A DNA stretch of 62,934 nt. Source: a virus. The notes under the pieces are model-generated. The model saw nothing but the letters and a program-made list of their open reading frames with translations. It was not told where the DNA came from and did no database searches. A program made the position numbers and the translations under genes. Shown one piece after another: positions 8,092 to 36,898 of this stretch; position 1 is the first letter of the stretch, and every line of letters starts with the position of its first letter. Location of the stretch: IMG/VR virus record IMGVR_UViG_3300020400_000006, positions 1 through 62,934 of that record; one strand, written 5' to 3'.

Positions 8092-8096
8092 AATGT

Positions 8097-22036: not shown

Positions 22037-22173
22037 ATAACACGAATTGACAGTGTTTTTCGTGCCTTTTGTGTTATAATGGGGGGGCGGTTAGCTAAAA
22101 AAGCAAACAACCCTAACCTACAAAAGTATCCCAACGAGCGATATATAAAAAAAATCGCAAAAAAATTTTTTGC
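22037..22173 (+). promoter_or_regulatory. regulatory leader: extended -10 promoter and stacked hairpins
   Basis: An extended -10 (TGTTATAAT, 22072-22080) lies in nested inverted repeats (CACGAA / TTCGTG and ATAACAC / GTGTTAT, 22037-22077). Then come a G7 run, stem GGTTAG / CTAACC (22089-22118), stem GCGAT / ATCGC (22138-22158), and a palindrome of seven A then six T flanked by GC (22157-22173). The rest of 21974-22193 has no gene. Confidence 0.45.
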
Positions 22174-22193
22174 CCTTAAAAAAAATTCTGGAT

Positions 22194-23141
22194 ATGTTTG
22201 TATACTGGGGATCTAATGATTCTGGCAAGGCACATCTGAAGCACTATGCCAAACTGAATAATAAAACGGTTCTCATGTGGTGGCCGAATGAGATTCATAA
22301 GGTAAAGACCACAACCCATATCAATGAATGGTCATGGGCGGATGAGACTGTTCATCGTATCAAGTATCATGACTTGGACGGTTTTCGTAAATGTGAAAAG
22401 ACAGAAAACCAGATATGGATAAACACGTTTCTATTTGAAAATTACGCTGCTACTATTAAGAGTACAATCAACCCTACCATAAATAAAGGTAAATATGGAA
22501 AACATGAAAAACATAAGAAGATATACACAAAAGAACAAATAAAGAAATATACACAGAAGGAGTATATCAACACTTCAGTATACTTTGATATTATCTCAAC
22601 GTTTAATAAAGCATATGGTAATGGTATCTGTAAACCATTGACTCATGATACTCTAAAGAATCACTATGATGAGATACTGGAAGATGTAGATGTAATCACA
22701 TTCACTCTCCCAGACTGGGCGATAGATGATTTAGAGGATGTACTCAGAAAGTCTGTCAATATCATACCGTATAAATCAAATCAACTTGATTCGGCAATCA
22801 GTAAATTAGATCACTTCAATAATGTAGAGAAGACAAATCTATTTGAAGTTTACAAAACTGATAAGAAGAGAGTATGGCGTTACCTAGATTGGTATCGTGA
22901 GGAAGTGGATAATACAATAGACAAACTATCACAGCGTAACATACCTTATACATTGTTTGATTTAGATACTGATAGTTACCCTGAAACTTTTGGATGGGAA
23001 ATTGACGTAGATCGTAAGTTCAGTCATCGAGGTGTAGCATGGAATCATGAGAATTATAACAGAGTCAAAGAAATTGCCGAGGAGTATGTCATAAATAAGT
23101 CAGGATACTATCACGATAAAAATGGCATACACAAGGGATGA
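22194..23141 (+). CDS. unknown ~290-aa paralogue family, member F
   Basis: 315 residues from ATG 22194. The N-terminus MFVYWGSNDSGKAHLKHY matches the WG....GKA loop of member A, then LNNKTVLMWW. Later segments are NIIPYKSNQLDSAI (YKED replaced by YKSN) near residue 190 and IPYTLFDLDTDSYPETF near residue 257. It is the only + strand member and starts the accessory island. Unrecognised; a distant copy of the 3.9-9.0 kb family. Confidence 0.75.
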   Translation: MFVYWGSNDSGKAHLKHYAKLNNKTVLMWWPNEIHKVKTTTHINEWSWADETVHRIKYHDLDGFRKCEKTENQIWINTFLFENYAATIKSTINPTINKGKYGKHEKHKKIYTKEQIKKYTQKEYINTSVYFDIISTFNKAYGNGICKPLTHDTLKNHYDEILEDVDVITFTLPDWAIDDLEDVLRKSVNIIPYKSNQLDSAISKLDHFNNVEKTNLFEVYKTDKKRVWRYLDWYREEVDNTIDKLSQRNIPYTLFDLDTDSYPETFGWEIDVDRKFSHRGVAWNHENYNRVKEIAEEYVINKSGYYHDKNGIHKG

Positions 23142-23337
23142 TGACGGTTTAGTAGGAAAAATCACACGGAACTCTGCAGGTAAATATGAGTGGAGTTTAG
23201 GTGAGTTTTATAAAGATGCTGAGATTGTTGGTAAGACTGGCACTTTTAATGGAAGGACACAACTTGTAAAAGGAACCGAAGATGATTACGACACCGCAGC
23301 AGCAGCACTAAAAGCAGCATTCGTGGCAGCAGAATAG
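23122..23337 (+). CDS. 71-residue hypothetical protein
   Basis: ATG 23122 overlaps the end of member F by 20 nt. Sequence AYTRDDDGLVGKITRNSAGKYEWSL looks like a small beta domain with an Ala-rich C-terminal helix. Its last 52 nt are antisense to the aldolase 3' end. Confidence 0.5.
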   Translation: MAYTRDDDGLVGKITRNSAGKYEWSLGEFYKDAEIVGKTGTFNGRTQLVKGTEDDYDTAAAALKAAFVAAE

Positions 23338-24089
23338 CATCGAAGCATACATATATCAGCTGAGTAGACAATAAAAGTATATCCTTCTTGTCGCCTCTCA
23401 GAGAATTCTTCTTTAGGATCCTTTGAGAGGTGATTTCCTGGTATGTGATAACCGATTGGCACATTATTTCGTAGACATCCTTTCTTGAACTCTCCTAACA
23501 CTTGCAAGTATTTGACATTTTCAAAATCACCTGCACAACCGAGAGATGCTGAAAGATCATACGGACCTATCAGTGCAACATCCACATCGACACTTAGAAT
23601 CTCATCGATGTTTTCCACAGCTTCGTAGTGTTCTATCATTGGTATGAGTAACGGTTGTTGTCCTAATCCTTCTCGGTGCTCATGAAATTGTATACCATAC
23701 CCGTTTCCTCTGTTAAACCCTATACCCCGTGTGCCTCTGGGTGGCAGCGAGAAACTCTCTTTTATCTCAGAGAGTTGTGATTTATTTCTTATTTGAGGAA
23801 CTATGATACCAGCAGCACCTTGTTCTAATGCTTCAATGGCACAATAGGAGTCTGGTTTAGATATACGTGCTAAAGGTAATGTATTGCCTAATTCCAATGC
23901 CCGAAATATGTTTGGTAACTGATCACGTGTAATATTACTATGTTCTAAGTCTACTCCTATAAAATCAAATCCTTGTGATCCTAAGATCTCTGCAACCTCA
24001 GGACAGGGTAATTGCATCCAAGACCCTACAACATGTCTACCTTCTGCTAAATATTGTCGAATCTTTTGAACTGCTGCAAATTTATTCAT
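23286..24089 (-). CDS. HpcH/HpaI-type aldolase
   Basis: 267 residues. Matches the class II HpcH/HpaI aldolase family (2-keto-3-deoxy sugar acid and related aldolases): VVGSWMQLPCPEVAEI, GFDFIGVDLEH (the catalytic His region), PLLIPMIEHYEAVENIDEIL (metal-site Glu) and DVALIGPYDLSASLG. It could cleave or form a 3-deoxy-2-keto acid sugar, compatible with the KdsB-like enzyme in the window (inference). The start overlaps the SGNH gene head to head in CATG, and the 3' end overlaps its neighbour by 52 nt; the Ala-rich last 12 residues may be an accreted tail. Confidence 0.8.
   Translation of the reverse strand: MNKFAAVQKIRQYLAEGRHVVGSWMQLPCPEVAEILGSQGFDFIGVDLEHSNITRDQLPNIFRALELGNTLPLARISKPDSYCAIEALEQGAAGIIVPQIRNKSQLSEIKESFSLPPRGTRGIGFNRGNGYGIQFHEHREGLGQQPLLIPMIEHYEAVENIDEILSVDVDVALIGPYDLSASLGCAGDFENVKYLQVLGEFKKGCLRNNVPIGYHIPGNHLSKDPKEEFSERRQEGYTFIVYSADICMLRCYSAATNAAFSAAAAVS
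24046..24053 (+). promoter_or_regulatory. late-promoter-like GCTAAATA inside aldolase gene
   Basis: On the + strand within the minus-strand aldolase, 35 nt before the SGNH ATG at 24088; distance fits a late promoter. Confidence 0.4.
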
Positions 24090-24669
24090 GATTTTATTCT
24101 CTGGATGTAGTATAACATATGGTGATGAGTTAGTAAACCCCGAAAAAGACAGATTTTCTAAAAATCATATCAATATTGCACGGTGTGGATTGTCAAATGA
24201 CATGATTGTCATGAGAACTATCGAGTATATTGAACAAAATCCCGATGTAGATTACGTTATAACGCAATTTACAGTGCCTAGACGGTCAACATACTACAAA
24301 AATGAGTGGAAAAGCATCACACCATGGATAAAAAACGTGCAATCAGATGTATATTATAAGTATTTGGACTCTCAAGAAATGAGAAATATGAATTTATGGA
24401 AAAATGTGTATATTTTAGAGCAATATTTACGTGACATACCGCATTATTTCTGGAGATTGAGTGAAAGCACAGAGAAATCATCAACAAATGACGGTATTTT
24501 TAAGAATTTGGTGCCTTGGAGTAATATGAAGACCTTATATGAACTAATTGGCAGACCCGATACATCTCCTCAACACTATGTAACTGGTCACCCTAACAAA
24601 AAAGGTCATGATTTGATTGCTCAACACCTCCAAGGCGTTGTCCCAAACATATTATACCACTCATCGTAG
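24088..24669 (+). CDS. SGNH/GDSL-type hydrolase 1
   Basis: 193 residues. Block I is FSGCSITYGDEL (nucleophile Ser in GCS) and block V is HPNKKGHDLIAQHL (catalytic His). The oxyanion Gly and Asn may be in RCGLSNDM. Family role: esterase, acyltransferase or deacetylase on glycans or lipids. The start codon overlaps the aldolase start (CATG). Its 3' end overlaps sulfotransferase 1 by 49 nt tail to tail. Confidence 0.75.
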   Translation: MILFSGCSITYGDELVNPEKDRFSKNHINIARCGLSNDMIVMRTIEYIEQNPDVDYVITQFTVPRRSTYYKNEWKSITPWIKNVQSDVYYKYLDSQEMRNMNLWKNVYILEQYLRDIPHYFWRLSESTEKSSTNDGIFKNLVPWSNMKTLYELIGRPDTSPQHYVTGHPNKKGHDLIAQHLQGVVPNILYHSS

Positions 24670-25529
24670 TATTTGGCAAGGTATCTTCGACCAAAACTCA
24701 AGTCATCATCAGTCAAATCCTCTAAATCAGAGGAATACTGGTCACTGAGGTTCTCATGGTGGGGTGCTTTTGTTCCCATTTCAGGATAATAGCAGTTAGG
24801 GTATAGATTTTTGATGTCAAAATGTAAAAAGTCACTAAGTTTTGCTAAAGCATCGTTTTTTCCACCCCATAAATCTTCTGAAACTATGGTTGTGGTGCTA
24901 AAAATCGATTTATAACACTTTATTCTCTTAACAAACTCACAATTTATGCTATAATTGCCTTTCATAAGATAATTTCTGAAATAATCTCTTGATGTAGGAT
25001 ATTTTTTACGTATATTTTTGTCATATTGGTATTGTGCCGACAATTCGCTGTATAATCTACGAACTGGGTCACGAAAAATTATTAAAACCTTAATTTTGAA
25101 GTGTTTTCTGAGTTGAGGTGCTATTTCTTTTATAAATTTTTGGGGAAGCATTGCATTGCTGTTAGAAAAATCAGCAACATATGCATATTCGTGTTTTATT
25201 CTCTCATAATGTCTTTTGTAATATTTGATATATGTCTCTAACGTCGGTTTTGTAAATAATTCTTCAATCTCATCTAGATTTTCAGTAAAAGCATACTTAT
25301 CTTTTAGATGCCACTCATTTTTGTAGTGTGGATTCTCGGATTTACCCATAATGAATTCATACCAAGGTCTTCTCCACTCCCATGCCTCATCGCTAAAAAT
25401 ATGATATAATAAGTGACTCTCCTTTTGTAGTCCTACATGGGCACACTTGTTAGAACGTTGTAATGTAAGGTGAAGAGGACTTGTAGCACTCCAACCAGTC
25501 CCTGCACCGATGATCAATGGAACTCTCAT
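24621..25529 (-). CDS. sulfotransferase 1
   Basis: 302 residues from the ATG at 25529, which overlaps the stop of sulfotransferase 2 (ATGA); a TTG two codons upstream is less likely. The N-terminal loop GAGTGWSATSPLHLTL corresponds to the 5'-phosphosulfate-binding loop, and IFRDPVRRLYSELS (residues ~148-161) to the 3'-phosphate-binding R...S motif of PAPS-dependent sulfotransferases. A conserved YYPEMGTKAPHHENLSDQY block and an FGRRYL...W...FG end follow. Closest to sulfotransferase 2. Confidence 0.8.
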   Translation of the reverse strand: MRVPLIIGAGTGWSATSPLHLTLQRSNKCAHVGLQKESHLLYHIFSDEAWEWRRPWYEFIMGKSENPHYKNEWHLKDKYAFTENLDEIEELFTKPTLETYIKYYKRHYERIKHEYAYVADFSNSNAMLPQKFIKEIAPQLRKHFKIKVLIIFRDPVRRLYSELSAQYQYDKNIRKKYPTSRDYFRNYLMKGNYSINCEFVKRIKCYKSIFSTTTIVSEDLWGGKNDALAKLSDFLHFDIKNLYPNCYYPEMGTKAPHHENLSDQYSSDLEDLTDDDLSFGRRYLAKYYDEWYNMFGTTPWRC

Positions 25530-26407
25530 GTCCAAGGCATAGTACCAAAGTAATTATACCACTCATCGTAATACTTTGTAAGGTGTTTTCTACCAAACTC
25601 AAGATCTTCTTCAGTCAAATCTTCTAAATCTGAAGACCATTGGTCTTTTAATTTCTTATGATGAGGTGCTTTTGTTCCCATCTCTGGAAAATATGCATTT
25701 GGCCACAATTTTTCAAACTTAAAATCTAAAAATTTCTCTAAGTTTTCTTGACAATTATTTTTTCCACCCCATAAATCCTCAGAAACGATACTTATGGTAC
25801 TAAAATGCTCGTTGAATGATTTATAACTGCCAACATAATCAGAATTTGGAGTAATCTCTCCTTTTTTAAGATAACTTCTCCAATATTCTTTTGAAGTGCT
25901 ATAACTATTTTGCAATTCTTTAGAATCTTGATATCTTTGAGACATTTCTGAGTATAATCTTCTTGTTGGATCTCTAAAAATCTTTAAAACCTTGATATCA
26001 AAATGTTTTTTTAATGTAGGAGCAATTTTTGCAATAAAATCTTTCGGTAAATTAGCATTACTGTTAGAAAAATCATGAACATACTTGAATTTGTGCTTCA
26101 CACGTTCATAATGACGTTTATAATACTTGACATATATCTTTAAATTTGGACTTCTAGTGTAAAACTCTTTAATTTCATCTATATTATGATGTAACTTTTT
26201 AGAAGTCATCGAATTACCAACAAAACGTTTATACGAAGGTTCTCTCCATTGCCATACACTAGGGTCATAAATATTCATCAGGAAATGGGGTTCTTTCAGA
26301 ATACCTGGATGACTACATTTATTTGCACATGATAGTGTAAGATGAAGTGGAGTGGTCGCACACCAACCATGTCCAGCTCCTATTATTAATGGAACTTTCT
26401 TATTCAT
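25526..26407 (-). CDS. sulfotransferase 2
   Basis: 293 residues. PSB-like loop GAGHGWCATTPLHLTL, 3'-phosphate motif IFRDPTRRLYSEMS, VADFSN-type block (VHDFSNSNANLP) and PEMGTKAPHHKKLKDQW. Most similar to sulfotransferase 1 along its whole length, indicating recent duplication. Its start codon overlaps the SGNH 2 start on the other strand (CATG). Confidence 0.8.
   Translation of the reverse strand: MNKKVPLIIGAGHGWCATTPLHLTLSCANKCSHPGILKEPHFLMNIYDPSVWQWREPSYKRFVGNSMTSKKLHHNIDEIKEFYTRSPNLKIYVKYYKRHYERVKHKFKYVHDFSNSNANLPKDFIAKIAPTLKKHFDIKVLKIFRDPTRRLYSEMSQRYQDSKELQNSYSTSKEYWRSYLKKGEITPNSDYVGSYKSFNEHFSTISIVSEDLWGGKNNCQENLEKFLDFKFEKLWPNAYFPEMGTKAPHHKKLKDQWSSDLEDLTEEDLEFGRKHLTKYYDEWYNYFGTMPWT
26266..26273 (+). 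promoter_or_regulatory. late-promoter-like CATAAATA inside sulfotransferase 2
   Basis: On the + strand, antisense to sulfotransferase 2 and 133 nt before the SGNH 2 ATG. In AT-rich DNA this could be chance. Confidence 0.25.
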
Positions 26408-27053
26408 GAAAATATTATTCAGTGGTGATAGTTTTACTTATGGTGACGAATTATCAAATAGAGAAAAAGATCGTTTCTCAAGACTAGTTAGTGAACATTA
26501 TGCTGCAGAAGAAATTAACAAGGCACAATGTGGTTCCTCAAACGATAAAATTGTTCGTGATGTATTTGAATATCTTCATCTGTTCAATGTTGACGCTGTA
26601 GTTGTTCAATTTTCAATATTACGTAGATTTGATGCTTATAAAGATGGTTGGATAGGAATGATGCCTGAAGATACAGGTGGAAAGTATTGTCATGCTCCAG
26701 ATTGGAAGAAAAATATAGCAAGAGCATATTATAAACACGTTCAAGATGATAGAAAAGATCAAGAGCGTTATTTTCAACAAATTTTGTTGTTGCAATCATT
26801 TTTGAATCAAAAAAATATCCCATACGTTATGTTGGGTCTAGAGAGTTTTGAATATAGGCAGGAAAAGATATATTATAATTACATCAAAGATTTTTGTGAG
26901 GATTTTGAATATATAATTCCAAATCTTATAGGAGGGTACAGATCTGAAAATTATTGTCCAGATCTCACACATATTAACTCTGCTTTGCATGGGATGCACC
27001 CAAATGAAAAGGGTCATAAAATCATAGCAAATCATATTATCAGTAAATTATGA
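26406..27053 (+). CDS. SGNH/GDSL-type hydrolase 2
   Basis: 215 residues from ATG 26406; the frame continues upstream, antisense to sulfotransferase 2. Block I is ILFSGDSFTYGDEL and block V is HPNEKGHKIIANHI. Contains GSSNDKIVRD (block II/III region). Head-to-head CATG with sulfotransferase 2, ATGA overlap with sulfotransferase 3. It resembles SGNH 1 and 3 throughout, so the three are paralogues. Confidence 0.78.
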   Translation: MKILFSGDSFTYGDELSNREKDRFSRLVSEHYAAEEINKAQCGSSNDKIVRDVFEYLHLFNVDAVVVQFSILRRFDAYKDGWIGMMPEDTGGKYCHAPDWKKNIARAYYKHVQDDRKDQERYFQQILLLQSFLNQKNIPYVMLGLESFEYRQEKIYYNYIKDFCEDFEYIIPNLIGGYRSENYCPDLTHINSALHGMHPNEKGHKIIANHIISKL

Positions 27054-28102
27054 AGATAAGGCATAAACCTAGAATACCAGTCGCACCACCTCCAAAAAAA
27101 CCAACTTTACTTATGAATATTGGTGTTGGTTGGTCTGCAACCACTCCATTCTTATATACTCTCTCAATAGATCAAAGATACTGTCATCCTGGTCATATAA
27201 AAGAAAATCATTACCTTAGAATGATATTTGAGCAAGATTGTTGTAATAAATTTGACATACATAAATTTATTTTATCAACATCAGCAAATGAAAAGCAATG
27301 GATATTTAGAAAATGGCAAAAAGAATTATTTGAGTACAGTTATCACTTTCTTGATGATCCAAATTACATAAAAGATTGGTATTCGCTTCCAGTTACCATT
27401 GATAAGTATATTGATTATTACATAAAGCATTGGGAAGTAATAAAAAGTGATTTTCATGCCGTAGCTGATTTTTCTAATCATAATTGGGCAATTCCTTATT
27501 ATGAAAATGGTTCAGACATGATAAAGGAGATACAAAAAGAATTTGAACTAAAAGTTACAGTTCAATTTAGAGATCCTATAAAACGTTTGTACTCAGAGTT
27601 AGGAACTTGTTTTGTTGATAAGAGAGTTCCACATATGTTTACTTTAGGTGCAACATCAAAACTACTGAGAGGTAGAAAATACTTACAAAACAATCAACAC
27701 AATAATTTTTTTAAATTTTGCTTAGACGATGGTGCTTGGGATAGTGCAAACTGTCGATACATTGATTTATTGACAAAGTGGGAGTCGTTAGTTGGCACTG
27801 CCAACATATTACCTATCATAATGGAAGAATTTTGGAATCCTCAATATAGAAAACAACAATGTGAGAGATTATCTAATTTTTTAGGAGCACCAATTCAAAA
27901 AATTCATCAAAATGCCTATTTTCCAGATATGGGTGCAGATGCACCTCACCACATAGGTCTTATAGATCAATGGACCTCTGATAAAGAAACAATTACTGAA
28001 GAAACTATAGAATATGCACTAAAATACATGAAACCGTGCTATACTGATTGGAAGTCTAAATTTGGAAGTGTACCTGAGTTGTGGACAAAGTATGAAGATT
28101 AA
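27050..28102 (+). CDS. sulfotransferase 3
   Basis: 350 residues, the longest copy. A basic proline-rich start (KIRHKPRIPVAPPPKKP) precedes the loop GVGWSATTPFLYTL. 3'-phosphate motif VQFRDPIKRLYSELG, then an inserted ~40 residues, NILPIIMEEFW, and YFPDMGADAPHHIGLIDQW. It overlaps SGNH 2 by 4 nt and the oxygenase gene by 11 nt. Confidence 0.8.
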   Translation: MKIRHKPRIPVAPPPKKPTLLMNIGVGWSATTPFLYTLSIDQRYCHPGHIKENHYLRMIFEQDCCNKFDIHKFILSTSANEKQWIFRKWQKELFEYSYHFLDDPNYIKDWYSLPVTIDKYIDYYIKHWEVIKSDFHAVADFSNHNWAIPYYENGSDMIKEIQKEFELKVTVQFRDPIKRLYSELGTCFVDKRVPHMFTLGATSKLLRGRKYLQNNQHNNFFKFCLDDGAWDSANCRYIDLLTKWESLVGTANILPIIMEEFWNPQYRKQQCERLSNFLGAPIQKIHQNAYFPDMGADAPHHIGLIDQWTSDKETITEETIEYALKYMKPCYTDWKSKFGSVPELWTKYED

Positions 28103-28703
28103 TTATGTTACTGATCCTTGGAAATGTGTAGAAATAGAAGATTTTCTACCTGAAGATAGGTGGAAAGAAATACAAGGACTAGCAAAAATAGAATTAGATA
28201 ACTACCACTCTTCAAATACTAAAGAAAAGTCTGGTCATTATGTAAGATTCCTAGATTATGATATTATTCCAGAAACCAATAGTTTATTTACAGATATTGC
28301 TTTACCTCATCGTGAATATAAAGGTAAATTGAAAAAACTTGTGCATTGGGCAATTTCTCCTCCAAAATGGAATTATCCAACTCATTGTGACAATAAATCC
28401 AGAATAAGCACTTCAATCATGTATATTTCTCCTGAGAATAGTGATGGTACTGTTCTACATAAGAACGCTAGTCAAAATGATGGAGGTGATCATGAAAAGG
28501 CAGATTTACCATCAACCTACACTTGTAAATTAGATTGGAAACCCAATAAGGTTTTCTTTCATAATAGTATTCCAAATAAAACTTGGCATAGTATTCAAAA
28601 TTCTACAGATCTTCCTAGAGTCGTATTAAGTTCGTTTCTAATACAAGAAGATTTGATTTTACCGAACAGACCTTGTTCAGGGTATGAAATTTCTATTAAT
28701 TAA
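28092..28703 (+). CDS. 2OG-Fe(II) oxygenase-like protein
   Basis: 203 residues from ATG 28092, overlapping the end of sulfotransferase 3. Candidate iron ligands are H98-C-D100 (THCDN) and H166 (TWHSIQN), with R176 ten residues later for 2-oxoglutarate: the HxD...H...R layout of small hydroxylases. STSIMYISPENSDG forms the core strands between. Family role: hydroxylation of a protein, sugar or small molecule. It lies in one transcript unit with sulfotransferases, suggesting a joint substrate (inference). Confidence 0.65.
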   Translation: MKINYVTDPWKCVEIEDFLPEDRWKEIQGLAKIELDNYHSSNTKEKSGHYVRFLDYDIIPETNSLFTDIALPHREYKGKLKKLVHWAISPPKWNYPTHCDNKSRISTSIMYISPENSDGTVLHKNASQNDGGDHEKADLPSTYTCKLDWKPNKVFFHNSIPNKTWHSIQNSTDLPRVVLSSFLIQEDLILPNRPCSGYEISIN

Positions 28704-28709
28704 TAATTC

Positions 28710-29537
28710 GTGACTACCTTATTGATTAGTGCTGGCACTGCTTTCTCTGCTAGTTCACCTTTACACTACACATTATGTTTAGATAACAAATATGCTCATA
28801 CTGGTTTATGTAAGGAAAATTTTTACCTCTATTCACTTCAAGAGGGTGTGAATATTGAGTTTGGTCGTGACACATCAAAAAACAAACCTCCACAAATGAC
28901 TATCACGCACGGATGTGAGGAGTTACATGGTAGAAGATCAATAAACTCTTACATAAGATATTATCAACGGTTGTGGGAGCATATAAAGACTGATTATCAA
29001 GCAATTGCTGACTTTTCTAATCAAAATGCTTGTTTGACTGAAAAATTCATGAAATCTATAAAACCAAATTTACTTAAGTGTTTTAATGTCAAAGTAATAA
29101 TGATTTTTAGAGATCCTATACGTAGATTGTGGTCAGTTTGTAACAAAGGTAACATCAAAGATTTTCGTAGATGGGTAAGTGGTGAATTAGAACCAAATGC
29201 CATGTATGCTGACATTTATAAAAGATATAGGAATGTTTGGGGTGAAGAAAATGTTCATATGGTGGTTATGGAAGAATTATGGGAAGGAAAGACGCAAGCA
29301 CTCTCTAATTTTTTAAATTTCCCTATAAACACAATTCATGAAAATGTTTATTACCCTGAAAGAGGAACAAAAGCACCGCATTACGAATACTTAATGGATC
29401 AATGGATATCTGACAAACATGATTTAGATGTAAAGACATGGGAGTATGCCATAAGCAATATGGGTTGGGTGTACAAAGATTTTAAGGAAACTTTTGGATA
29501 CATACCTGATAAGTGGGGTCAATGGTATGAAACCTAA
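28710..29537 (+). CDS. sulfotransferase 4
   Basis: 275 residues with a GTG start 6 nt after the oxygenase stop. Loop SAGTAFSASSPLHYTL, 3'-phosphate motif IFRDPIRRLWSVCN, VMEELWEGKTQALSNFL, and YPERGTKAPHYEYLMDQW. The shortest copy; it ends in FKETFGYIPDKW. It overlaps copy 5 by 11 nt. Confidence 0.8.
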   Translation: MTTLLISAGTAFSASSPLHYTLCLDNKYAHTGLCKENFYLYSLQEGVNIEFGRDTSKNKPPQMTITHGCEELHGRRSINSYIRYYQRLWEHIKTDYQAIADFSNQNACLTEKFMKSIKPNLLKCFNVKVIMIFRDPIRRLWSVCNKGNIKDFRRWVSGELEPNAMYADIYKRYRNVWGEENVHMVVMEELWEGKTQALSNFLNFPINTIHENVYYPERGTKAPHYEYLMDQWISDKHDLDVKTWEYAISNMGWVYKDFKETFGYIPDKWGQWYET

Positions 29538-30492
29538 ATTATTATTGAACGCTGGAACTTGTTTCTCAGCAACAAGTCCGTTGTGGTATACTTTAGGGTT
29601 AAATAACCACTATGCTCATACTGGACACGCAAAAGAGCACAATTATCTTTATCATATGATGATTGATGCGAAAAGGTCCATCAGTACACCTAGTCAACTC
29701 AATTCATCTGTTAGATTGACTCAAAAGTGGGAACAAACTGATTTGATAAAAAAAACCAAGAAGAAGGAGAAAAAGAGGGATGGAAAAGATGGATTCATGC
29801 ATGTTTATCCTGAGATGACTAAAAGGTCACCTTTTATAGAAGGTAAGTGGACATTAGAAGAAAGAAGAGATTTTTTTGATAATCCAGAACTAAGTATTGA
29901 CAAATATATTAAGTATTACCTAAAACATTGGGAAAACTTTAAATGTGAATATCAATCAGTTGCAGATTTCTCTAATACTAATGCTTGCTTGTCTGTAGAG
30001 TTTATGGAAAGTATAAAACCTAAATTATTAGAATATTTTGATATAAAAGTAACAATGATCTTTAGAGATCCTATTCGTAGGTTATTTTCAGCGTGTAATA
30101 GAGTTCATTCTAAATCTGGTGGAATTATGGAAGGATTTAGAAATTGGATCCTATCTGACAGTATGGAAGAGAACGTTTACTACTCAAACATATATAATAG
30201 GCATTGTCAGGTATGGGGTAAAGAAAATGTAATGCCTATTATAATGGAGGAGTTCTCTACTGATAAATTATCTGATTTCTTAGGTTATCGTTTAGTCACT
30301 GCTCATCAGAATTGTTATTATCCTGAAATGGGTTCTAATGCACCAAAATATCCTGGTTTGTCAGATCAATATAGTTCAGATAAGATAGATTTGTATAAAG
30401 AGACTTATGAGTTTGCTTTAGTACATATGGAGAACATTTATAAATCATTTGAAGAAACTTTTGGTTACATACCCGAAGCATGGAAAAAATAA
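29527..30492 (+). CDS. sulfotransferase 5
   Basis: 321 residues from ATG 29527. Loop NAGTCFSATSPLWYTL; a Lys-rich insert (KKTKKKEKKRDGK) near residue 77; VADFSNTNACLS; 3'-phosphate motif IFRDPIRRLFSACN; and YPEMGSNAPKYPGLSDQY. It overlaps copy 6 by 13 nt. Closest to copies 4 and 6. Confidence 0.8.
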   Translation: MKPKLLLNAGTCFSATSPLWYTLGLNNHYAHTGHAKEHNYLYHMMIDAKRSISTPSQLNSSVRLTQKWEQTDLIKKTKKKEKKRDGKDGFMHVYPEMTKRSPFIEGKWTLEERRDFFDNPELSIDKYIKYYLKHWENFKCEYQSVADFSNTNACLSVEFMESIKPKLLEYFDIKVTMIFRDPIRRLFSACNRVHSKSGGIMEGFRNWILSDSMEENVYYSNIYNRHCQVWGKENVMPIIMEEFSTDKLSDFLGYRLVTAHQNCYYPEMGSNAPKYPGLSDQYSSDKIDLYKETYEFALVHMENIYKSFEETFGYIPEAWKK

Positions 30493-31370
30493 AGTTATTA
30501 TGGAATATTGGGACCAACTATTCCGCTACAACTCCTTTTTGGTACACATTATCGTTAAATCATAAATTTTGCCATACTGGTCATCGTAAAGAATTGCATT
30601 GGCTTGATCTTCTGGAATCTCAAAAGTTTTGGAAAACGAAAATCAAGGGTAGACCACGTTATTACAAATATTTCACTAATAGGATTTTTGGTTTTACTAC
30701 ATCACCTTTAGCATACCTAAAAACCGACAAACCATCAAAATTACAAAATGCTAGATGTTTCACTAAGGAAGAAGAAGAATACTTCTTCTCTTATCCAACA
30801 TCAATTGAAAAGTACATTGATTATCGTAAAAGGCATTGGAATCACATAAAACATGAGTATCATGCATTAGGTGATTTTTCAAATAGTTATTGTTTATTAT
30901 CTGAAGACTTTATGAGAGGTATTAAGGATAAATTACTAGAAGTCTTTGATCTAAAGATTACTGTATGCCTTAGAGACCCTGTTCGTCGTTTATGGTCCTC
31001 TAACCCTAATAAATCAGGCGGAATAGATAAAGTTTCTAATTATGGTAAAATATTACGGTCTTATTATAATGTTTGGGGTAAAGACAATGTTCTTCCTATT
31101 ATAATGGAGGAATTTTGGGATCCTAGTAAATATAGAGAGCAGACTGAAAGATTATCTAATTTTTTGAATTATCCTATTACTAACATCTATAAAAACGTTT
31201 ATTATCCTGAACTTGGTTCTAATTCACCACAATATGAATTTTTGAAAGATCAATGGAAAAATGAGAAGGATATTGATTTAGAAACATATAAACACATTTA
31301 TTCTAAATTAGAATGGATTTACCAAGACTGTGAAAAAATTTTTGGTTATATCCCAGAAAAATGGCAATAA
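30480..31370 (+). CDS. sulfotransferase 6
   Basis: 296 residues. Loop NIGTNYSATTPFWYTL, LGDFSNSYCLLS, 3'-phosphate motif CLRDPVRRLWSS, NVLPIIMEEFWDP, and YPELGSNSPQYEFLKDQW. Last gene of the + strand run 26406-31370. The stop overlaps a late-promoter octamer. Confidence 0.8.
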   Translation: MEKIKLLWNIGTNYSATTPFWYTLSLNHKFCHTGHRKELHWLDLLESQKFWKTKIKGRPRYYKYFTNRIFGFTTSPLAYLKTDKPSKLQNARCFTKEEEEYFFSYPTSIEKYIDYRKRHWNHIKHEYHALGDFSNSYCLLSEDFMRGIKDKLLEVFDLKITVCLRDPVRRLWSSNPNKSGGIDKVSNYGKILRSYYNVWGKDNVLPIIMEEFWDPSKYREQTERLSNFLNYPITNIYKNVYYPELGSNSPQYEFLKDQWKNEKDIDLETYKHIYSKLEWIYQDCEKIFGYIPEKWQ

Positions 31371-31373
31371 ATA
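31366..31373 (+). promoter_or_regulatory. late-promoter-like AATAAATA
   Basis: Overlaps the stop of sulfotransferase 6 and lies 22 nt before the ATG at 31395. Confidence 0.5.
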
Positions 31374-31394
31374 AAAATACTTATTTTTATAGAT

Positions 31395-31487
31395 ATGAAA
31401 AGATTATGGCAATGGATAAAAGGTGAATACAAACTTTGGAAATTACGTAAGCAAGATCCATATATTTACGAAGAAGATGATGACTAA
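31395..31487 (+). CDS. 30-residue small protein
   Basis: ATG 31395. An amphipathic Trp/Lys-rich start (KRLWQWIKGEYKLWKLRK) is followed by a very acidic tail. It has its own late promoter and ends exactly where the minus-strand sulfotransferase 7 stop begins. The composition and promoter argue for a real gene, perhaps conserved in cyanomyoviruses. Confidence 0.55.
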   Translation: MKRLWQWIKGEYKLWKLRKQDPYIYEEDDD

Positions 31488-32330
31488 TTACCAACTATGT
31501 GGTATATAACCAAATTTTTTCTCAAACCCTTCATATAACCAATTAAGTTTTTTTCTACCATAATCAAGATCATCTTTTGATAAATCTTGCAAGTCAGATG
31601 TCCATTGGTGTTCTAAACCCTTTATATGCGGTGCTCTTGTTCCTCGTTCTGGAAAATAAAGATTTTTGCTCATTTTATCTATTTTCACACCTAGAAAATC
31701 AGACAAACCTTTTGGATTCTCCCAAACCTCCTCCATAATCACAGGATACACCTTTTTGAACGCAGATGACCAATTTTTGTAAATTGTTACGTAGTCTGGT
31801 AATACAATTGAGGGTTTTTCTAAATTTGACCTCCAATATTCTAAACTATTAGAATATCTTTTATAACTGTCATTCCATTTTTCTTTGTACCATGTTGACA
31901 TTTGAGAATATGATCTCCTGACTGGATTTCTCCATATTGTAGTGACTTTGACATCAAATTCGCTTTCAAGTCTTGGTGCAATCTGTCTCAAGAAGTATGC
32001 AGGTAAATCTCCGTTACTATTTGAGAAATCGCTGACACCTTTATGACTTTTAACAATATGTGATTTAATATAATCAACATACCAGTCTAGAGTCGTGTCT
32101 TTTTTGACAAAATCTAATCCTCTTTTCTTATGATCCTTGTGCCAGTAAATATTTGCATGCTTTGGATTGTATTCCCTCTCATATAAGTAATATAGCACAT
32201 TACACTCTGTAGTATGCTCTCTATTTGGGCATATCGCATATCCAATGTCTGAAAGTGTGTCGCAAAGCGGTTTAGTCGCAGACCACCCCACTCCAGCATT
32301 TATGTGCAATACGGGTTTCATAAATATCAT
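31488..32330 (-). CDS. sulfotransferase 7
   Basis: 280 residues; AAGGAG six nt upstream of the ATG at 32330 supports this start over the internal Met at 32321. Loop NAGVGWSATKPLCDTL. The 3'-phosphate motif reads IWRNPVRRSYSQMS, Asn replacing the usual Asp. VSDFSNSNGDLP and YFPERGTRAPHIKGLEHQW are also seen. The only isolated minus-strand copy. Confidence 0.8.
   Translation of the reverse strand: MIFMKPVLHINAGVGWSATKPLCDTLSDIGYAICPNREHTTECNVLYYLYEREYNPKHANIYWHKDHKKRGLDFVKKDTTLDWYVDYIKSHIVKSHKGVSDFSNSNGDLPAYFLRQIAPRLESEFDVKVTTIWRNPVRRSYSQMSTWYKEKWNDSYKRYSNSLEYWRSNLEKPSIVLPDYVTIYKNWSSAFKKVYPVIMEEVWENPKGLSDFLGVKIDKMSKNLYFPERGTRAPHIKGLEHQWTSDLQDLSKDDLDYGRKKLNWLYEGFEKKFGYIPHSW
32319..32326 (+). 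promoter_or_regulatory. late-promoter-like CATAAATA for sulfotransferase 8
   Basis: On the + strand, overlapping the 5' end of sulfotransferase 7. Predicted transcription starts near 32332, downstream of the ATG at 32304, which favours a TTG start at 32349. Confidence 0.5.
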
Positions 32331-32348
32331 GCATTCTCCTTATATATT

Positions 32349-33311
32349 TTGAAAATACCATTATTGATATTTGGTGGATGGGGTCATGCTGCATCTACAC
32401 CATTTTATTATACTCTTTCTTTAGATAATAAGTATTGTCATGGTGGACACAGAAAGGAGACTGGATACCTTAATGAATTAGAAAATTATGAGTTCTTTGA
32501 TCAACCTATGTGGACGTATACTAGTGACCCATATGATAGGTTGATGGTAAAGGATTCTAGTATGCCACCAATACTTGATAAGCATGTAAAGCATAGTGAG
32601 GAGTTTATCCGAGATTGGATAGCAGAACCACCAAGTATATGTAAGTACATTCATTATTATCTAATACATTATGAAAACATCAAACATGAATATAAGGCAG
32701 TTGCTGACTTTACAAACGGCAATTCTTGGTTGAGAGAACCATTTCTTGACAAGTACGTGCCTGCATTGCAAGAGTTTTTTGATATAAAATGCATATTTGT
32801 TTCTAGAGATCCAGTCCGTAGATCATATTCAGATTTTAGTGCTAAGTTTACAGGAAATGATCCTAGTGGTAAAATGTTGAAAGAAGGTATGTTATACCCT
32901 AACAATCCCACTGACAAACATTATAATAATATACATGATATGTTTTGCGGAGAACTACGTAAGACTTGTACAAGGTTCTATGTTGAGTTTTATAAAAAAT
33001 TCAGCAAATACTTCCCAACTCTTCAAATTGTGATGGAGGATTTTTGGGAACCTGATAATTTTACTGAGCAGACCGAAAGGTTATCCAATTTCTTAGGTTA
33101 TCCTATTACAAAGATACATGAGAATGCTTTTTGGCCAGAAGCAGGTGAAAATGCACCTAAATACGATTTCCTGAAGGATCAATGGGGATCTGTAAGGGAA
33201 CCACTAACAAAAGAGTTATACGATTATGGTAGAGAACAATTGGACCCAATCTATTCTCAATGGAAAGAAGAGTTTGGATCTTTGCCTAGTTCTTGGGGTA
33301 AACATATATGA
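32349..33311 (+). CDS. sulfotransferase 8
   Basis: 320 residues from TTG 32349, chosen because it gives the same short strand before the loop as in the other copies and because of the late promoter at 32319; an ATG at 32304 would add 15 residues antisense to copy 7. Loop FGGWGHAASTPFYYTL (most diverged), VADFTNGNSWL, 3'-phosphate motif VSRDPVRRSYSDFS, and WPEAGENAPKYDFLKDQW. The stop overlaps the carbamoyltransferase start by 4 nt. Confidence 0.75.
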   Translation: MKIPLLIFGGWGHAASTPFYYTLSLDNKYCHGGHRKETGYLNELENYEFFDQPMWTYTSDPYDRLMVKDSSMPPILDKHVKHSEEFIRDWIAEPPSICKYIHYYLIHYENIKHEYKAVADFTNGNSWLREPFLDKYVPALQEFFDIKCIFVSRDPVRRSYSDFSAKFTGNDPSGKMLKEGMLYPNNPTDKHYNNIHDMFCGELRKTCTRFYVEFYKKFSKYFPTLQIVMEDFWEPDNFTEQTERLSNFLGYPITKIHENAFWPEAGENAPKYDFLKDQWGSVREPLTKELYDYGREQLDPIYSQWKEEFGSLPSSWGKHI

Positions 33312-34687
33312 TAGGGTTTAGCGAGGGATTTCATGACGCTGCAATTGCGGTTGTTCATAAAAATACTATTAGTTACGCTGCACATTCTGAGAGATACTCA
33401 AAAAAGAAGCATGATAAAGTATTGAACTTAAATGCAGTCACCATGGCAAGGGGATTGAATATACATGATGACATTGTAGCATTTTACGAAAACCCGTTAT
33501 CAAAAAGAACTAGACAGTTATATGCAGGACAAAAAGCGTGGAGGAGAGATAGACGGTTATCTTTGCAACCTAATAAGTATATGCAACATCATAAATCACA
33601 CGCTGCTGCTGCATTTCAAACATCCAACTTTGAACACGCTGCGTGTGTGGTGGTAGATAGCATTGGTGAGTGGGATTGTTCCTCAGTGTGGACTGCTAAT
33701 ATGGTAAGAGGATCCGCAGTATATAAAAAAGTATGGTCTAGAAGATATCCTAAGTCTATAGGACTTTGGTATAGTGCACTGACTAAATGGGCAGGATTAA
33801 GACCATTAGATGAAGAATATATTTTTATGGGAATGGCAGCCTTCGGAAAACCTTGTTATACTAAAGAGTTACGAGCATTACTTTCTAAAAATAACCATAA
33901 AGGTATACGTGGACTAGAAGGTGATTCATGTGATGTAGCAAAAAGTGCGGAGGTTGTTCTTCAAGAGGAATTGTTCAAAATATTTGATATTGCTAAAAAA
34001 TACAGTAACAACATTTGCTATGGAGGCGGAGTTGCACTAAACTGTGTTGTAAATACAAAACTAAGGGAAAGGTGCAATCTTTGGATTATGCCTAATCCTG
34101 GCGACGCTGGAGGTGCTTTAGGTGCAGCTTTACTTGCATATGGTAAAAAAGTTCAATTTACTCCCTATCTCGGATGTAACATTAGGGGTTCGGTGGATCC
34201 AGAAGAGGTGGTCGATCACATACTCAAACATAAAATCGTTGGTGTTGCAAATGGTCGTGCTGAGTTTGGTCCTCGTGCTCTTGGTAATAGAAGTCTATTG
34301 GCGGATCCACGCCAAATTTCAACCAAAGATCTAGTCAACGAAATAAAACAACGTCAGAAGTTTAGACCATTTGCTCCTGCTATACTAGAAGAGCATTGTC
34401 AGGAATGGTTTGATATGCCTGAGCATTCAAGGCATATGTCATATGTTTATCAATGTAAGCAGAGTGACCTTATTCCTGCCTGTCTACACGTTGATAACTC
34501 TGCTAGAGTACAAACAGTGCCAGAGACATCTGAGAGCGTTCTGAGACCCATATTGGAGTGTTGGTATGAGAAGACAGGAATCCCTGTATTGTTGAATACA
34601 TCTTTGAATGTTCGTGGAAAACCAATGGTAAACAATGTTGAAGATGCAAAATTGTTTTCTAGTAAATATTCAGTCAAGGTTTTTTAA
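33308..34687 (+). CDS. NodU/CmcH-type carbamoyltransferase
   Basis: 459 residues. The N-terminal domain has GFHDAAIAVV, HHKSHAAAAFQ (conserved His pair) and VVVDSIGEWD. The YrdC-like C-terminal half shows GGGVALNCVVN, PGDAGGALGAALLA and GRAEFGPRALGNRSLLADPR. These are hallmarks of O-carbamoyltransferases that use carbamoyl phosphate and ATP to modify a sugar hydroxyl. It is slightly shorter than typical (~550) family members. Placed between sulfotransferase 8 (ATGA) and SGNH 3 (TAATG) in one unit. Confidence 0.88.
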   Translation: MIGFSEGFHDAAIAVVHKNTISYAAHSERYSKKKHDKVLNLNAVTMARGLNIHDDIVAFYENPLSKRTRQLYAGQKAWRRDRRLSLQPNKYMQHHKSHAAAAFQTSNFEHAACVVVDSIGEWDCSSVWTANMVRGSAVYKKVWSRRYPKSIGLWYSALTKWAGLRPLDEEYIFMGMAAFGKPCYTKELRALLSKNNHKGIRGLEGDSCDVAKSAEVVLQEELFKIFDIAKKYSNNICYGGGVALNCVVNTKLRERCNLWIMPNPGDAGGALGAALLAYGKKVQFTPYLGCNIRGSVDPEEVVDHILKHKIVGVANGRAEFGPRALGNRSLLADPRQISTKDLVNEIKQRQKFRPFAPAILEEHCQEWFDMPEHSRHMSYVYQCKQSDLIPACLHVDNSARVQTVPETSESVLRPILECWYEKTGIPVLLNTSLNVRGKPMVNNVEDAKLFSSKYSVKVF

Positions 34688-35403
34688 TGAAAATACTGTT
34701 TCATGGATGCTCAATTACTTGGGGTGACGAACTCGAAGATCGTGAAAATGAAAGATATAGTAAATTAGTTTCTAATCATTTTCTGACTGAAGACTGTAAT
34801 ATTTCTCATTGCGGGAATAGTAACGATAGAATTGTAAGAGAATCTATTGAACATCTACAAGACAATTGTTTTGATATTGTGGTATTGCAGTTTACTGTAC
34901 ACTCAAGAGTGGAGTGGTTTGATAAACAGGGTTTTCCCCATAGGTTTACACCACAACTTACATCAACTCATGGAAAATTAAAACTCAAGGGTATTGCAGG
35001 TAGAGATGATTTGAGAGAAAGAATGTTTTCTGCTGGTAAATGGTTTTATAGGTTTGTTTATAATGATATTCTTGGTGTCGAAAATATGTGGAAAAATATT
35101 TTTCTTTTTGATTCTTACTGTAAGGCAAACAATATTACCTTCATCCCTATTTTAGCAGATCATTTTCATGAGGTTATTCGTAGACCAGAAAAGTTTTATC
35201 ATGGGGCAAATGGAACTGGTTGGTGGAAACCTTTATGTCAGGATATACCAATAACATATATTCATGAGGATATTATAGGTCATAAAAAGGATGGCATAGG
35301 AGATCATTACTATGGTGATTACCATGCAAAGGGAAATCATCCAAACGCTTTAGGACACCAAAAAATTGCAGAAAAACTTATTAAGTTGATAGAGACTATA
35401 TAA
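34687..35403 (+). CDS. SGNH/GDSL-type hydrolase 3
   Basis: 238 residues; the ATG shares a base with the upstream stop. Block I is ILFHGCSITWGDEL, CGNSNDRIVRESIEH carries the Gly/Asn region, and block V is HPNALGHQKIAEKL. An insert near residues 165-215 (FYHGANGTGWW... GIGDHYYGDYHAKG) is longer than in SGNH 1 and 2. Function as for the other two: ester hydrolysis or transfer on a glycan is inference. Confidence 0.78.
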   Translation: MKILFHGCSITWGDELEDRENERYSKLVSNHFLTEDCNISHCGNSNDRIVRESIEHLQDNCFDIVVLQFTVHSRVEWFDKQGFPHRFTPQLTSTHGKLKLKGIAGRDDLRERMFSAGKWFYRFVYNDILGVENMWKNIFLFDSYCKANNITFIPILADHFHEVIRRPEKFYHGANGTGWWKPLCQDIPITYIHEDIIGHKKDGIGDHYYGDYHAKGNHPNALGHQKIAEKLIKLIETI

Positions 35404-35438
35404 TCTGTTATAATATAATTGGATTGCAACCCTATAGT

Positions 35439-36197
35439 ATGGCTAAAGGATTTAAGGTGGTAACCACTCCACCCGCTACAGAAAAAAAGGAAGACTGGTG
35501 GTCTGTAGAAAAAGGAAAAGAATTAATCAAAGGTAAAAGCATTGTTTTTTGTTTGCCTGGTCGTGGTGTTTCTTACATATTTTTAAAAGCGTTTGTGCAA
35601 CTTTGTTTTGATTTAGTACAAAGTGGTGCAAGTATTCAAATATCTCAAGATTACTCATCAATGGTAAACTTTGCACGATGTAAGTGTTTAGGTGCGAATG
35701 TGCTTAGAGGACCTGATCAATTACCATGGGACGGTAAACTGAAATATGACTATCAACTTTGGATTGACAGTGATATTGTTTTCAACCTAGAAAATTTTTA
35801 TCGAATAGTTTGTATGGACAAAGATATCGCTGCTGGTTGGTATGCGACTGAAGATGGTAAGACAACATCCGTTGCACATTGGCTTGAAGAAGATGACTTC
35901 AAGGAAAATGGCGGAGTTATGAATCATGAGATGGTTGATGGCATTCAAAAACGCAAAAAACCATTTACAGTTGACTACACTGGATTTGGTTGGTTATTAA
36001 TTAAAAAAGGAGTGTTCGAGCATAAAGAAATGACTTATCCTTGGTTCGCACCTCAAATGCAGGTTTTTGAATCTGGAGAGGTTCAAGACATGTGTGGTGA
36101 AGATGTATCTTTTTGCTTAGATGCTATCAAGGCGGGATTTGAAATTTGGTGTGACCCTCAATGTCGTGTTGGTCATGAGAAAACAAGAATTATATAG
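35439..36197 (+). CDS. GT-A-like glycosyltransferase
   Basis: 252 residues from ATG 35439; a TTG 15 nt upstream is less likely, and TATAAT-like sequence (35409-35416) lies before it. FCLPGRGVSYIFLKAF opens the domain, LWIDSDIVFN carries a DxD-type metal motif, and GEDVSFCLDAIKAGFEIWCDP carries the late ED acceptor motif common in GT-2-like enzymes. Similar genes occur near baseplate genes in cyanomyoviruses (from memory). Acceptor unknown. Confidence 0.65.
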   Translation: MAKGFKVVTTPPATEKKEDWWSVEKGKELIKGKSIVFCLPGRGVSYIFLKAFVQLCFDLVQSGASIQISQDYSSMVNFARCKCLGANVLRGPDQLPWDGKLKYDYQLWIDSDIVFNLENFYRIVCMDKDIAAGWYATEDGKTTSVAHWLEEDDFKENGGVMNHEMVDGIQKRKKPFTVDYTGFGWLLIKKGVFEHKEMTYPWFAPQMQVFESGEVQDMCGEDVSFCLDAIKAGFEIWCDPQCRVGHEKTRII

Positions 36198-36463: not shown

Positions 36464-36471
36464 GATAAATA
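36464..36471 (+). promoter_or_regulatory. late promoter (GATAAATA) for baseplate genes
   Basis: NATAAATA 23 nt before the GTG of gp25 and just after the terminator; a CTAAATA also lies at 36457-36463. Confidence 0.65.
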
Positions 36472-36493: not shown

Positions 36494-36898
36494 GTGCCTG
36501 TCCAACGTTTTTCGCAGGGTTTTAAGGACATATCTTTGTCTTTCAAAACTCATCCAGTAACAAATGATATACTTGCATTGAAAAATGAGGATGCAATAAA
36601 ACGTTCTGTCCAAAATTTGATAAGAATACAATTAGGAGAGGTATTTTTTAATGATTTGTTAGGTACTAGAATAACTGGTGCGTTATTTGAGCTTGCCAAC
36701 GATGATTTTGTTGATCCTATAGTAACAGAAATAGAAACTACGATAACAAACAACGAACCTAGAGTGGAATTGACTGATGTTGATGTTCAATCACAACCTG
36801 ATAATAATTCTTTAGATATTAGGATATCTTATGATCTCGTTGGTTTATCTGCACCAACTCAAATTTTACAATTCGTCTTAGAACCAACTAGGCTATAA
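36494..36898 (+). CDS. 25: baseplate wedge protein gp25
   Basis: 134 residues with a GTG start. Matches the gp25/GPW family: RGFKDISLSF-type start (SQGFKDISLSF), THPVTNDI, NEDAIKRSVQNLIRIQLGEVFFN and LFE. In T4, gp25 forms the core of the wedge with gp6 and gp53 and has a lysozyme-like fold without activity. The stop overlaps the gp6 start (TAATG). Confidence 0.88.
   Translation: MPVQRFSQGFKDISLSFKTHPVTNDILALKNEDAIKRSVQNLIRIQLGEVFFNDLLGTRITGALFELANDDFVDPIVTEIETTITNNEPRVELTDVDVQSQPDNNSLDIRISYDLVGLSAPTQILQFVLEPTRL

Follow-up and report, generated by a model that had tools for sequence, protein, structure and literature searches.

The virus record IMGVR_UViG_3300020400_000006 of IMG/VR is a stretch of 62,934 bases, analysed at full length and called the window below. 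It is probably a fragment of a T4-like cyanophage genome. Between 23.3 and 35.4 kb, the window carries an island of cargo genes, which includes eight genes for sulfotransferase-fold (ST) proteins, ST1 to ST8, within 24621-33311. The island belongs to a hypervariable recombining cassette locus of T4-like picocyanobacterial phages, located directly upstream of a weakly glycosyltransferase-like gene (GT) and the baseplate wedge genes gp25 and gp6. The main cargo of this locus is a phage-specific radiation of ST proteins.

Gene content of the island

The features of the island and its right border are given below. For each ST gene, the loop aligned with the 5'-phosphosulfate (PSB) loop of sulfotransferases is stated, together with dN/dS, the ratio of nonsynonymous to synonymous rates.

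23286..24089, minus strand: HpcH/HpaI-type aldolase (2-keto-3-deoxy acid aldolase family); PF03328 at E 4.3e-17, NCBIfam HpaI/GarL below cut-off; in 12 of 81 related contigs
24088..24669, plus strand: SGNH1, SGNH-hydrolase-like (GCS, GLSND, GHPN..GH); iterated-profile homology to SGNH2, no Pfam match
24621..25535, minus strand: ST1, W in the PSB loop (GTGWSATSP); family profile; dN/dS 0.09-0.14
25526..26407, minus strand: ST2, W in the PSB loop (GHGWCATTP); the copy that was folded, pLDDT 95.3 and Z 16.7 to 3-OST-3; dN/dS 0.21-0.30
26406..27053, plus strand: SGNH2, SGNH-hydrolase-like (GDS, GSSND, MHPN..GH); DUF6071 at E 3e-11, Lipase_GDSL_2 at E 2.2e-5, below cut-off
27050..28102, plus strand: ST3, W in the PSB loop (GVGWSATTP); family profile; dN/dS 0.21
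28062..28703, plus strand: 2-oxoglutarate (2OG)-Fe(II)-oxygenase-like protein; motif H108xD110...H176...R186, no Pfam or PDB match
28710..29537, plus strand: ST4, F in the PSB loop (GTAFSASSP); family profile; dN/dS 0.08-0.10
29494..30492, plus strand: ST5, F in the PSB loop (GTCFSATSP); family profile; dN/dS 0.09-0.13 at a dS of just 0.20
30480..31370, plus strand: ST6, Y in the PSB loop (GTNYSATTP); family profile; dN/dS 0.24
31488..32330, minus strand: ST7, W in the PSB loop (GVGWSATKP), RNP replacing RDP; family profile; dN/dS 0.16
32304..33311, plus strand: ST8, H in the PSB loop (GWGHAASTP), adjoining the carbamoyltransferase; Sulfotransfer_1 at E 0.046, sub-threshold; dN/dS 0.16
32320..32326, plus strand: ATAAATA late-promoter-like motif from the motif scan, 23 nt upstream of the likely ST8 start; ST8, the carbamoyltransferase, SGNH3 and GT could be transcribed from it
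33308..34687, plus strand: NodU/TobZ-type O-carbamoyltransferase; PF16861 at E 1.5e-52, PF02543 at E 5e-31, phrog_1601
34687..35403, plus strand: SGNH3, SGNH-hydrolase-like; homology to SGNH2, no Pfam match
35424..36197, plus strand: phrog_1574 protein (GT), weakly glycosyltransferase-like, the fixed right border; phrog_1574 at E 4.5e-116; in 81 of 81 related contigs
36494..38775, plus strand: gp25 and gp6 baseplate wedge genes (Pfam), the hot-spot anchor; late-promoter motif at 36465-36471

All eight ST open reading frames (ORFs) are complete and free of internal stops. Neighbouring island genes overlap or abut, including head-to-head pairs (24088/24089, 26406/26407). The family profile found no ninth ST copy in the window, and ST6 came out as two pieces in one scan. 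ST8 probably starts with the TTG at 32349 and not at 32304, and the annotated ORF of SGNH2 may begin at 26352.

A preliminary description of this DNA had proposed a NodU-type carbamoyltransferase and an aldolase among the companions of the ST genes, and the Pfam matches bear out both. The carbamoyltransferase exceeds the gathering scores of Carbam_trans_N and Carbam_trans_C (PF16861, PF02543), and its FGPRALGNRS block aligns with the NovN and VtdB structures. Its profile matches NovN/GdmN/TobZ-type structures, and the enzyme resembles metabolite/sugar O-carbamoyltransferases. With regard to the three proposed SGNH paralogues, SGNH2 matches DUF6071 and, weakly and below the cut-off, Pfam GDSL, as the only one of the three, and homology to SGNH2 is the basis on which SGNH1 and SGNH3 were assigned. 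All three carry the HPN motif without the block V Asp; among 196 SGNH relatives, GCS/GDS is present in 146 and the block III pattern in 122. The proposed 2OG-Fe oxygenase-like protein retains H108, D110, H176 and R186 invariantly in 10 relatives, but Pfam and PDB profile searches gave no match. The GT-A-like protein that had been counted as an island member is a cyanophage backbone gene and not island cargo: its family, phrog_1574, occurs in 103 phage records, nearly all of them from cyanophages.

Sulfotransferase fold and altered phosphosulfate loop

The eight ST copies, aligned over their full length, share 26-56% pairwise identity, and each matches the family profile, which includes these copies, at E ≤ 1e-107, so a chance resemblance is ruled out. 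Single-sequence scans against Pfam and PHROG gave no usable match for any of them. None reaches the gathering score of Sulfotransfer_1 (PF00685), for which ST8 alone gives a match (E 0.046, 13.5 vs 22 bits); among 70 relatives, seven match PF00685 at E ≤ 0.01 (best 5.1e-7). As profile searches miss all eight copies, a large family is left unannotated. With the family's own profiles, solved sulfotransferases were reached at E 0.0016 (8 rows) and 2e-8 (70 rows), in the order 3rnl, then heparan-sulfate 3-O-sulfotransferases (3-OST).

The AlphaFold2 model of ST2, computed from 68 family rows, has a pLDDT of 95.3 and a pTM of 0.92. Its best structural matches are 3-OST-3 (Z 16.7 over 221 residues, 3.4 Å), NDST1 (16.5) and 3rnl (16.3), and the remaining sulfotransferase classes follow at Z 10-13. 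The match to 3-OST/NDST spans residues 1-293, and the PAPS-binding sheet (PAPS, 3'-phosphoadenosine-5'-phosphosulfate) and the strand-loop-helix architecture are present. In a viral structure library, most named best matches of the model are annotated as sulfotransferases. Because of the profile matches to solved sulfotransferases and the structural matches of the ST2 model, the predicted sulfotransferase fold of the family is hardly in doubt. The ranking of the matches suggests polysaccharide-type enzymes, although the fold gives no proof of the substrate.

Eight divergent sulfotransferase paralogues at this place had been the central claim of the preliminary description. They are intact and alignable over their full length, profile and fold confirm their homology to sulfotransferases, and we found neither decay nor loss of the fold. 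An N-terminal loop and an RDP.RR.(Y/W/F)S motif had been attributed to every copy. All eight align at both places and six read RDPxRRxxS, but ST3 has RDPIKRLYS, ST7 has RNPVRRSYS, and the loop of ST8 is GWGHAASTP. The PAPS fold that a structure prediction was expected to reveal is there for ST2 (Z 16-17), but the loop lacks its defining Lys/Arg, and at the residue level the PAPS site is mixed.

The family loop reads GxGWSATTPL vs GxxKxGTxxL in canonical enzymes, and HMMER alignment places the family W opposite the K of 3rnl and of cellular relatives. We collected 191 unique members longer than 220 residues; the loop was readable by pattern in 185 of them, with W in 132, F in 28, H in 16, Y in 8 and K in 1. 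According to a review, Lys/Arg, the phosphate-binding (PB) serine and the sheet are the working definition of sulfotransferases, and the Lys/Arg is highly conserved and catalytic (PMC11625862). For the equivalent Lys614 of NDST1, simulation indicated a role as the catalytic acid (PMC3733922). By the published definition, the ST family hence does not consist of canonical PAPS sulfotransferases, though the fold and the 3'-phosphate motif are kept. As the PSB Lys/Arg is gone, PAPS chemistry is not to be assumed.

The 3'-phosphate motif RDPxxRx(Y/F/W)S is kept in 178 of the 191 unique copies, and PxxRxxS in all eight of the window. In the 70 aligned rows, E210 and R150 are invariant (70/70), and the KE motif is conserved at about 85% (K38 in 61, E39 in 58). 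The motif follows the first helix, and we take it to correspond to the catalytic Glu of 3-OST enzymes; a role as the base would follow by analogy with 3-OST/NDST. Compared with the heparan-sulfate 3-OST and NDST enzymes (PF00685) and bacterial 3rnl, the family has in common the fold over nearly the whole chain, the 3'-PB motif RxPxxRxxS and, if this correspondence is right, the K-E block. It differs in an identity of 14-18%, in the replacement of the PSB Lys by an aromatic residue or His, and in scoring below the Pfam gathering threshold.

A scan of genome contigs found no close cellular relatives. A profile search over 201 genomes of the host family found distant picocyanobacterial relatives in 40, the best eight matching over their full length at E 1e-17 to 2e-25. 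These sulfotransferases share the K-E block and RDPxxRxxS with the phage family but keep the K/R and the G in the PSB loop (GAQ[KR]xGT) as well as (S/T)PxY, and they occur in 1-3 copies per genome vs 0-9 in phage islands. The six best relatives carry GAQ(K/R)xGT, (S/T)PxY and RDPxxRxxS. The phage family mostly has A for the loop G, and SNxN has taken the place of the conserved block that follows, (S/T)PxY.

In a maximum-likelihood tree run against these host sulfotransferases, as the preliminary description had advised, the sole Lys-bearing phage copy (L106:3722-4636) joins the cellular sequences and the other 69 phage rows lie beyond a 99/94 branch; the tree is midpoint-rooted with bootstraps incompletely settled, and two rows, the Lys-bearing one included, are very long-branched. 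The simplest reading of these sequences would be one loss of the PSB Lys/Arg, followed by radiation inside phages.

The two loop types can occur side by side in a single island, since the island gene at L058:2882-3841 (minus strand), which exceeds the gathering score of a different family, Sulfotransfer_2 (PF03567), has retained the canonical Lys (HIAKCGGTT). The single sulfotransferases of Synechococcus phage S-SCSM1 and Prochlorococcus phage P-SSM7 have the same fold according to the viral structure library. With ST2 and ST8 as tblastn queries against 50,697 phage records, only the uncultured Marine virus AG-345-D19 was matched. We found no description of sulfotransferase arrays in phages in the open-access literature.

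Cassette exchange at a fixed place in cyanophage genomes

T4-type baseplate genes follow in the window from 36.5 kb on (Pfam matches), and its gp6 is 49-53% identical to that of Synechococcus phages and 64.5% to that of the single-particle Marine virus AG-345-D19. The plate of AG-345-D19 came from the extracellular sort gate of a Prochlorococcus/Synechococcus study (PMC6122165). Photosystem reaction-centre genes (psbA/psbD-type) are present in AG-345-D19 and in relatives of 192 kb (two genes) and 122 kb; psbA is not present in the window itself. Judged by gp25-gp6 synteny, cyanophage genes and the photosystem genes of its relatives, the window is from a T4-like cyanomyovirus (Kyanoviridae relatives). 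From these photosystem genes and the origin of AG-345-D19, the host is very probably a marine picocyanobacterium.

About 100 loci were fetched from viral contigs with carbamoyltransferase and ST1/ST2-group baits, and the 81 contigs that had both the carbamoyltransferase and gp25 were analysed. The presence of the carbamoyltransferase thus reflects the selection by bait, whereas that of GT and gp25 and the ST content do not. In these contigs, which all have GT, the gene order ends with carbamoyltransferase-(SGNH)-GT-gp25-gp6 with few insertions, so the search of related phage genomes suggested earlier located the island at the same fixed place. The cargo upstream varies: 0-9 ST genes, 0-9 SGNH genes and sometimes the 2OG oxygenase, the aldolase, the F3921 family described below or radical SAM genes. 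At least one ST gene is present in 67 contigs and at least five in 15; the 0-9 range is from a separate survey, and per-contig counts of unique proteins can overshoot the copy number where the locus end cuts a gene. Four cultured cyanophages also have GT-gp25-gp6, but their complete genomes lack any ST of this family. The gp46-gp25 interval was earlier listed as a cyanomyovirus hot spot (PMC3037559). It is the same variable interval, but the content reported for it was small and mostly of hypothetical genes, vs the large enzyme arrays seen here.

Between the window and contig L017, dS is 0.04 for the 2OG gene, 0.20 for ST5 and 0.23 for ST6, against 1.1 for GT, 1.5 for gp25 and 1.9 for gp6. In contig L016, other paralogues replace ST6 and ST7 between a close ST5 (96%) and ST8 (88%). 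The nearest relative sits in a different contig for 183 of 190 ST proteins, and the eight copies of the window are scattered across the ST tree. Because of this uneven dS, the replacement in L016 and the distribution of the relatives, the arrays look as if assembled by recombination from an old shared pool and not by recent duplication in place. The diversity among copies that the preliminary description had stressed is real and predates the array. With dN/dS of 0.08-0.30 for all eight copies, the ST orthologues are under purifying selection.

Other observations concern the same loci. A second ST locus lies downstream of tail genes in the 192-kb relative (L134:4141-9871) and at L136:6925-10820, with other P-loop-like proteins (TGPQGSGNHLF...); in L134, it also has a DctP-like solute-binding protein (PF03480, E 2.5e-32). 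Small in-island ORFs with an HNH-nuclease-like pattern (CAYCG...DHI.P...GG; L099:3309-3698, L070:6499-6897) could drive cassette exchange. At L038:3571-6275 and L019:2585-3904, paralogous ORFs beginning V.QHWDPL..C.VG.S..PEFYS or similar stand beside ST and SGNH genes; the one that was scanned gave no Pfam or NCBIfam match.

Possible roles of the island

The best explanation is a decoration of glycans by sulfation and carbamoylation, with hydroxylation or deacylation, encoded by a cassette locus; we give it an even chance. The preliminary description had likewise proposed a combinatorial system for glycan decoration, and its interpretation finds partial support. That the ST proteins work like PAPS sulfotransferases is likewise a matter of about even odds. 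We infer that sulfuryl groups are transferred, and also the acceptor class, the location and the selective reason. In this scheme, PAPS would come from the host's APS (adenosine-5'-phosphosulfate) kinase, as the enzyme is encoded in 55 of 61 genomes of the host family and was found in none of 11 phage records. The ST paralogues would bind PAPS via the intact 3'-phosphate site (RDPxxRxxS) and place sulfuryl groups on a glycan at different hydroxyls; the lost PSB Lys/Arg may be replaced in this by the conserved KE motif. The carbamoyltransferase, the SGNH proteins and the oxygenase would attach other groups to this acceptor or take them off. Cassette swaps would alter the decoration of an infected-cell surface polymer or a virion glycan, as in the arms races between phages and hosts over surface recognition.

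If the enzymes are active, an infecting phage would bring many group-transfer enzymes to bear on polymers simultaneously. Surface polymers matter for the sea's most abundant photosynthetic cells, as adsorption, superinfection and grazing are influenced by them. The lipopolysaccharide (LPS)/cell-wall clusters of P-SSM2, S-SSM7 and S-SCSM1 are also sugar-modification cargo of cyanomyoviruses, for which host-surface alteration was proposed (PMC3037559, PMC9602691). They abound in glycosyltransferases and epimerases and are found close to hli03/phoH, whereas the ST island, upstream of gp25, has many group-transfer enzymes.

We assume ATAAATA to be the core of the cyanophage late promoter. The window has 9 copies vs 33.5 expected (plus strand only), a depletion of about fourfold, and several stand 23-31 nt before gene starts; such strong avoidance elsewhere would fit a functional late promoter. 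The motif precedes gp25 in 74 of 80 contigs. As most island heads lack it, virion decoration is not favoured over host-surface modification, and at most part of the island seems to be canonically late. Late expression of the whole island was considered and is not supported. Sigma-70-like promoters occur in the island at chance level (73 found vs 72.6 expected).

Several points weigh against glycan decoration. The PSB Lys/Arg is replaced by W, F, H or Y in 184 of 185 readable loops, and a sulfotransferase fold does not fix the substrate. ATAAATA stands at just 8 of 42 ST heads on the plus strand and 1 of 69 on the minus strand, which gives no support for decoration of the virion. Sharing one hot spot does not imply joint action. 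The island is almost devoid of glycosyltransferases, and the 192-kb and 122-kb relatives have one GT2 match each; as the phages have hardly any glycosyltransferases of this commonest family, the glycan would probably be largely host-made.

The altered loop leads to the main rival explanation, which we consider possible but distinctly less probable than glycan decoration. In this view, the fold was kept and the function changed, so that no sulfate would be transferred; the proteins would bind ligands, recognising or sequestering PAP/PAPS or glycans, or would be transferases with another donor, and their diversification would reflect binding specificity. It is supported by the aromatic residue or His found in place of the PSB Lys/Arg in 184 of 185 loops, as opposed to GAQK/GAQR in six cellular relatives, by the A that mostly replaces the loop G, by the conversion of (S/T)PxY to SNxN and by the separation of the 69 phage rows, across the 99/94 branch, from the Lys-bearing copy treed with cellular ones. 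However, the 3'-phosphate and KE motifs are conserved under purifying selection, and a pure scaffold would hardly need the charged K38, E39, R145, R150 and E210 that remain.

Between these two lies a bolder proposal, which we put forward tentatively and hold to be a little more likely than the loss of sulfate transfer. It would be a phage-born enzyme superfamily that radiated after the loss into dozens of subfamilies (about 70 clusters at 65% identity in our sample), transfers groups by a new catalytic arrangement and supplies interchangeable cassettes, so that the surface of the cell or the virion would bear a chemical signature particular to each phage. The sulfotransferase fold and accessory-gene cargo in hot spots are known, but the enzyme chemistry may well be new. 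If it is, the criteria by which sulfotransferases are recognised change; the family also offers natural variants that bear on the question of which PSB residues sulfuryl transfer needs.

In a third explanation, the acceptor is a small molecule and not a polymer: in the infected cell, a soluble metabolite derived from host precursors would be tailored by the sulfotransferases, the carbamoyltransferase, the oxygenase and the aldolase. Such enzymes (sulfotransferases, carbamoyltransferases, oxygenases) also co-occur in natural-product tailoring clusters, natural-product O-carbamoyltransferases came out best when the carbamoyltransferase profile was run against the PDB, and relatives have radical SAM genes. 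We regard it as improbable, however, as no gene that would build a scaffold (polyketide synthase, peptide synthetase) is among the scanned island ORFs, the ST genes differ from phage to phage in number and divergence, which is odd for a fixed product, and the closest solved folds are polysaccharide enzymes.

We disfavour both a modification of the phage DNA and a decay of the genes. Carbamoylation of 5-hydroxymethylcytosine (5hmC) is known from phage enzymes of this carbamoyltransferase superfamily (PMC8670742), and the other enzymes could then add more groups. This is very improbable, since the 5hmC enzymes mostly have C/T at the positions of TobZ G421/R423, whereas ALGNR is kept here in 6 of 6 aligned proteins, as in metabolite carbamoyltransferases (the correspondence to TobZ numbering is ours), and no thymidylate-synthase-family gene as a source of 5hmC was found in the window or in six relatives (two >120 kb, one 192 kb). 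Least credible is filler DNA kept in the hot spot for headful packaging, as proposed for LPS gene clusters of large cyanophages (PMC3037559), for although gene content varies freely, all eight copies are intact with dN/dS of 0.08-0.30 and motifs are conserved in distant copies.

A second sugar-related block lies between structural genes at 3077-9002 (minus strand) of the window. It comprises a HAD protein that matches a capsule-biosynthesis protein, a SIS-like protein, a CMP-Kdo-synthetase-like protein (7375-8091), orf8097 and four paralogues of an unassigned family (3921-7378). A similar block is at the same place in L139, and AG-345-D19 (L018) has HAD-SIS-KdsB-ST. As the LPS of marine Synechococcus is without Kdo and heptose (PMC4515613), the block may produce a sugar that the host itself lacks; taken with the HpcH/HpaI aldolase, it points, speculatively, to a 2-keto-3-deoxy acid.

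The F3921/orf8097/orf22170 family (3921-7378; 22170-23141) is unannotated, has a conserved GK near the N-terminus and stands beside the carbamoyltransferase in relatives L011-L098. Its predicted fold is P-loop-like, with the best Z of 8.5 to Stf0 sulfotransferase tied with P-loop kinases and no Foldseek match below E 0.1; the family may likewise transfer groups. At 14230-15453 of the window and at L061:10484-11737, the latter inside the relative's island, Twitch-domain radical SAM proteins are encoded (NF033640, above cut-off). Similar ORFs were seen by eye in L099, L106 and L040, and all of these may be further tailoring enzymes.

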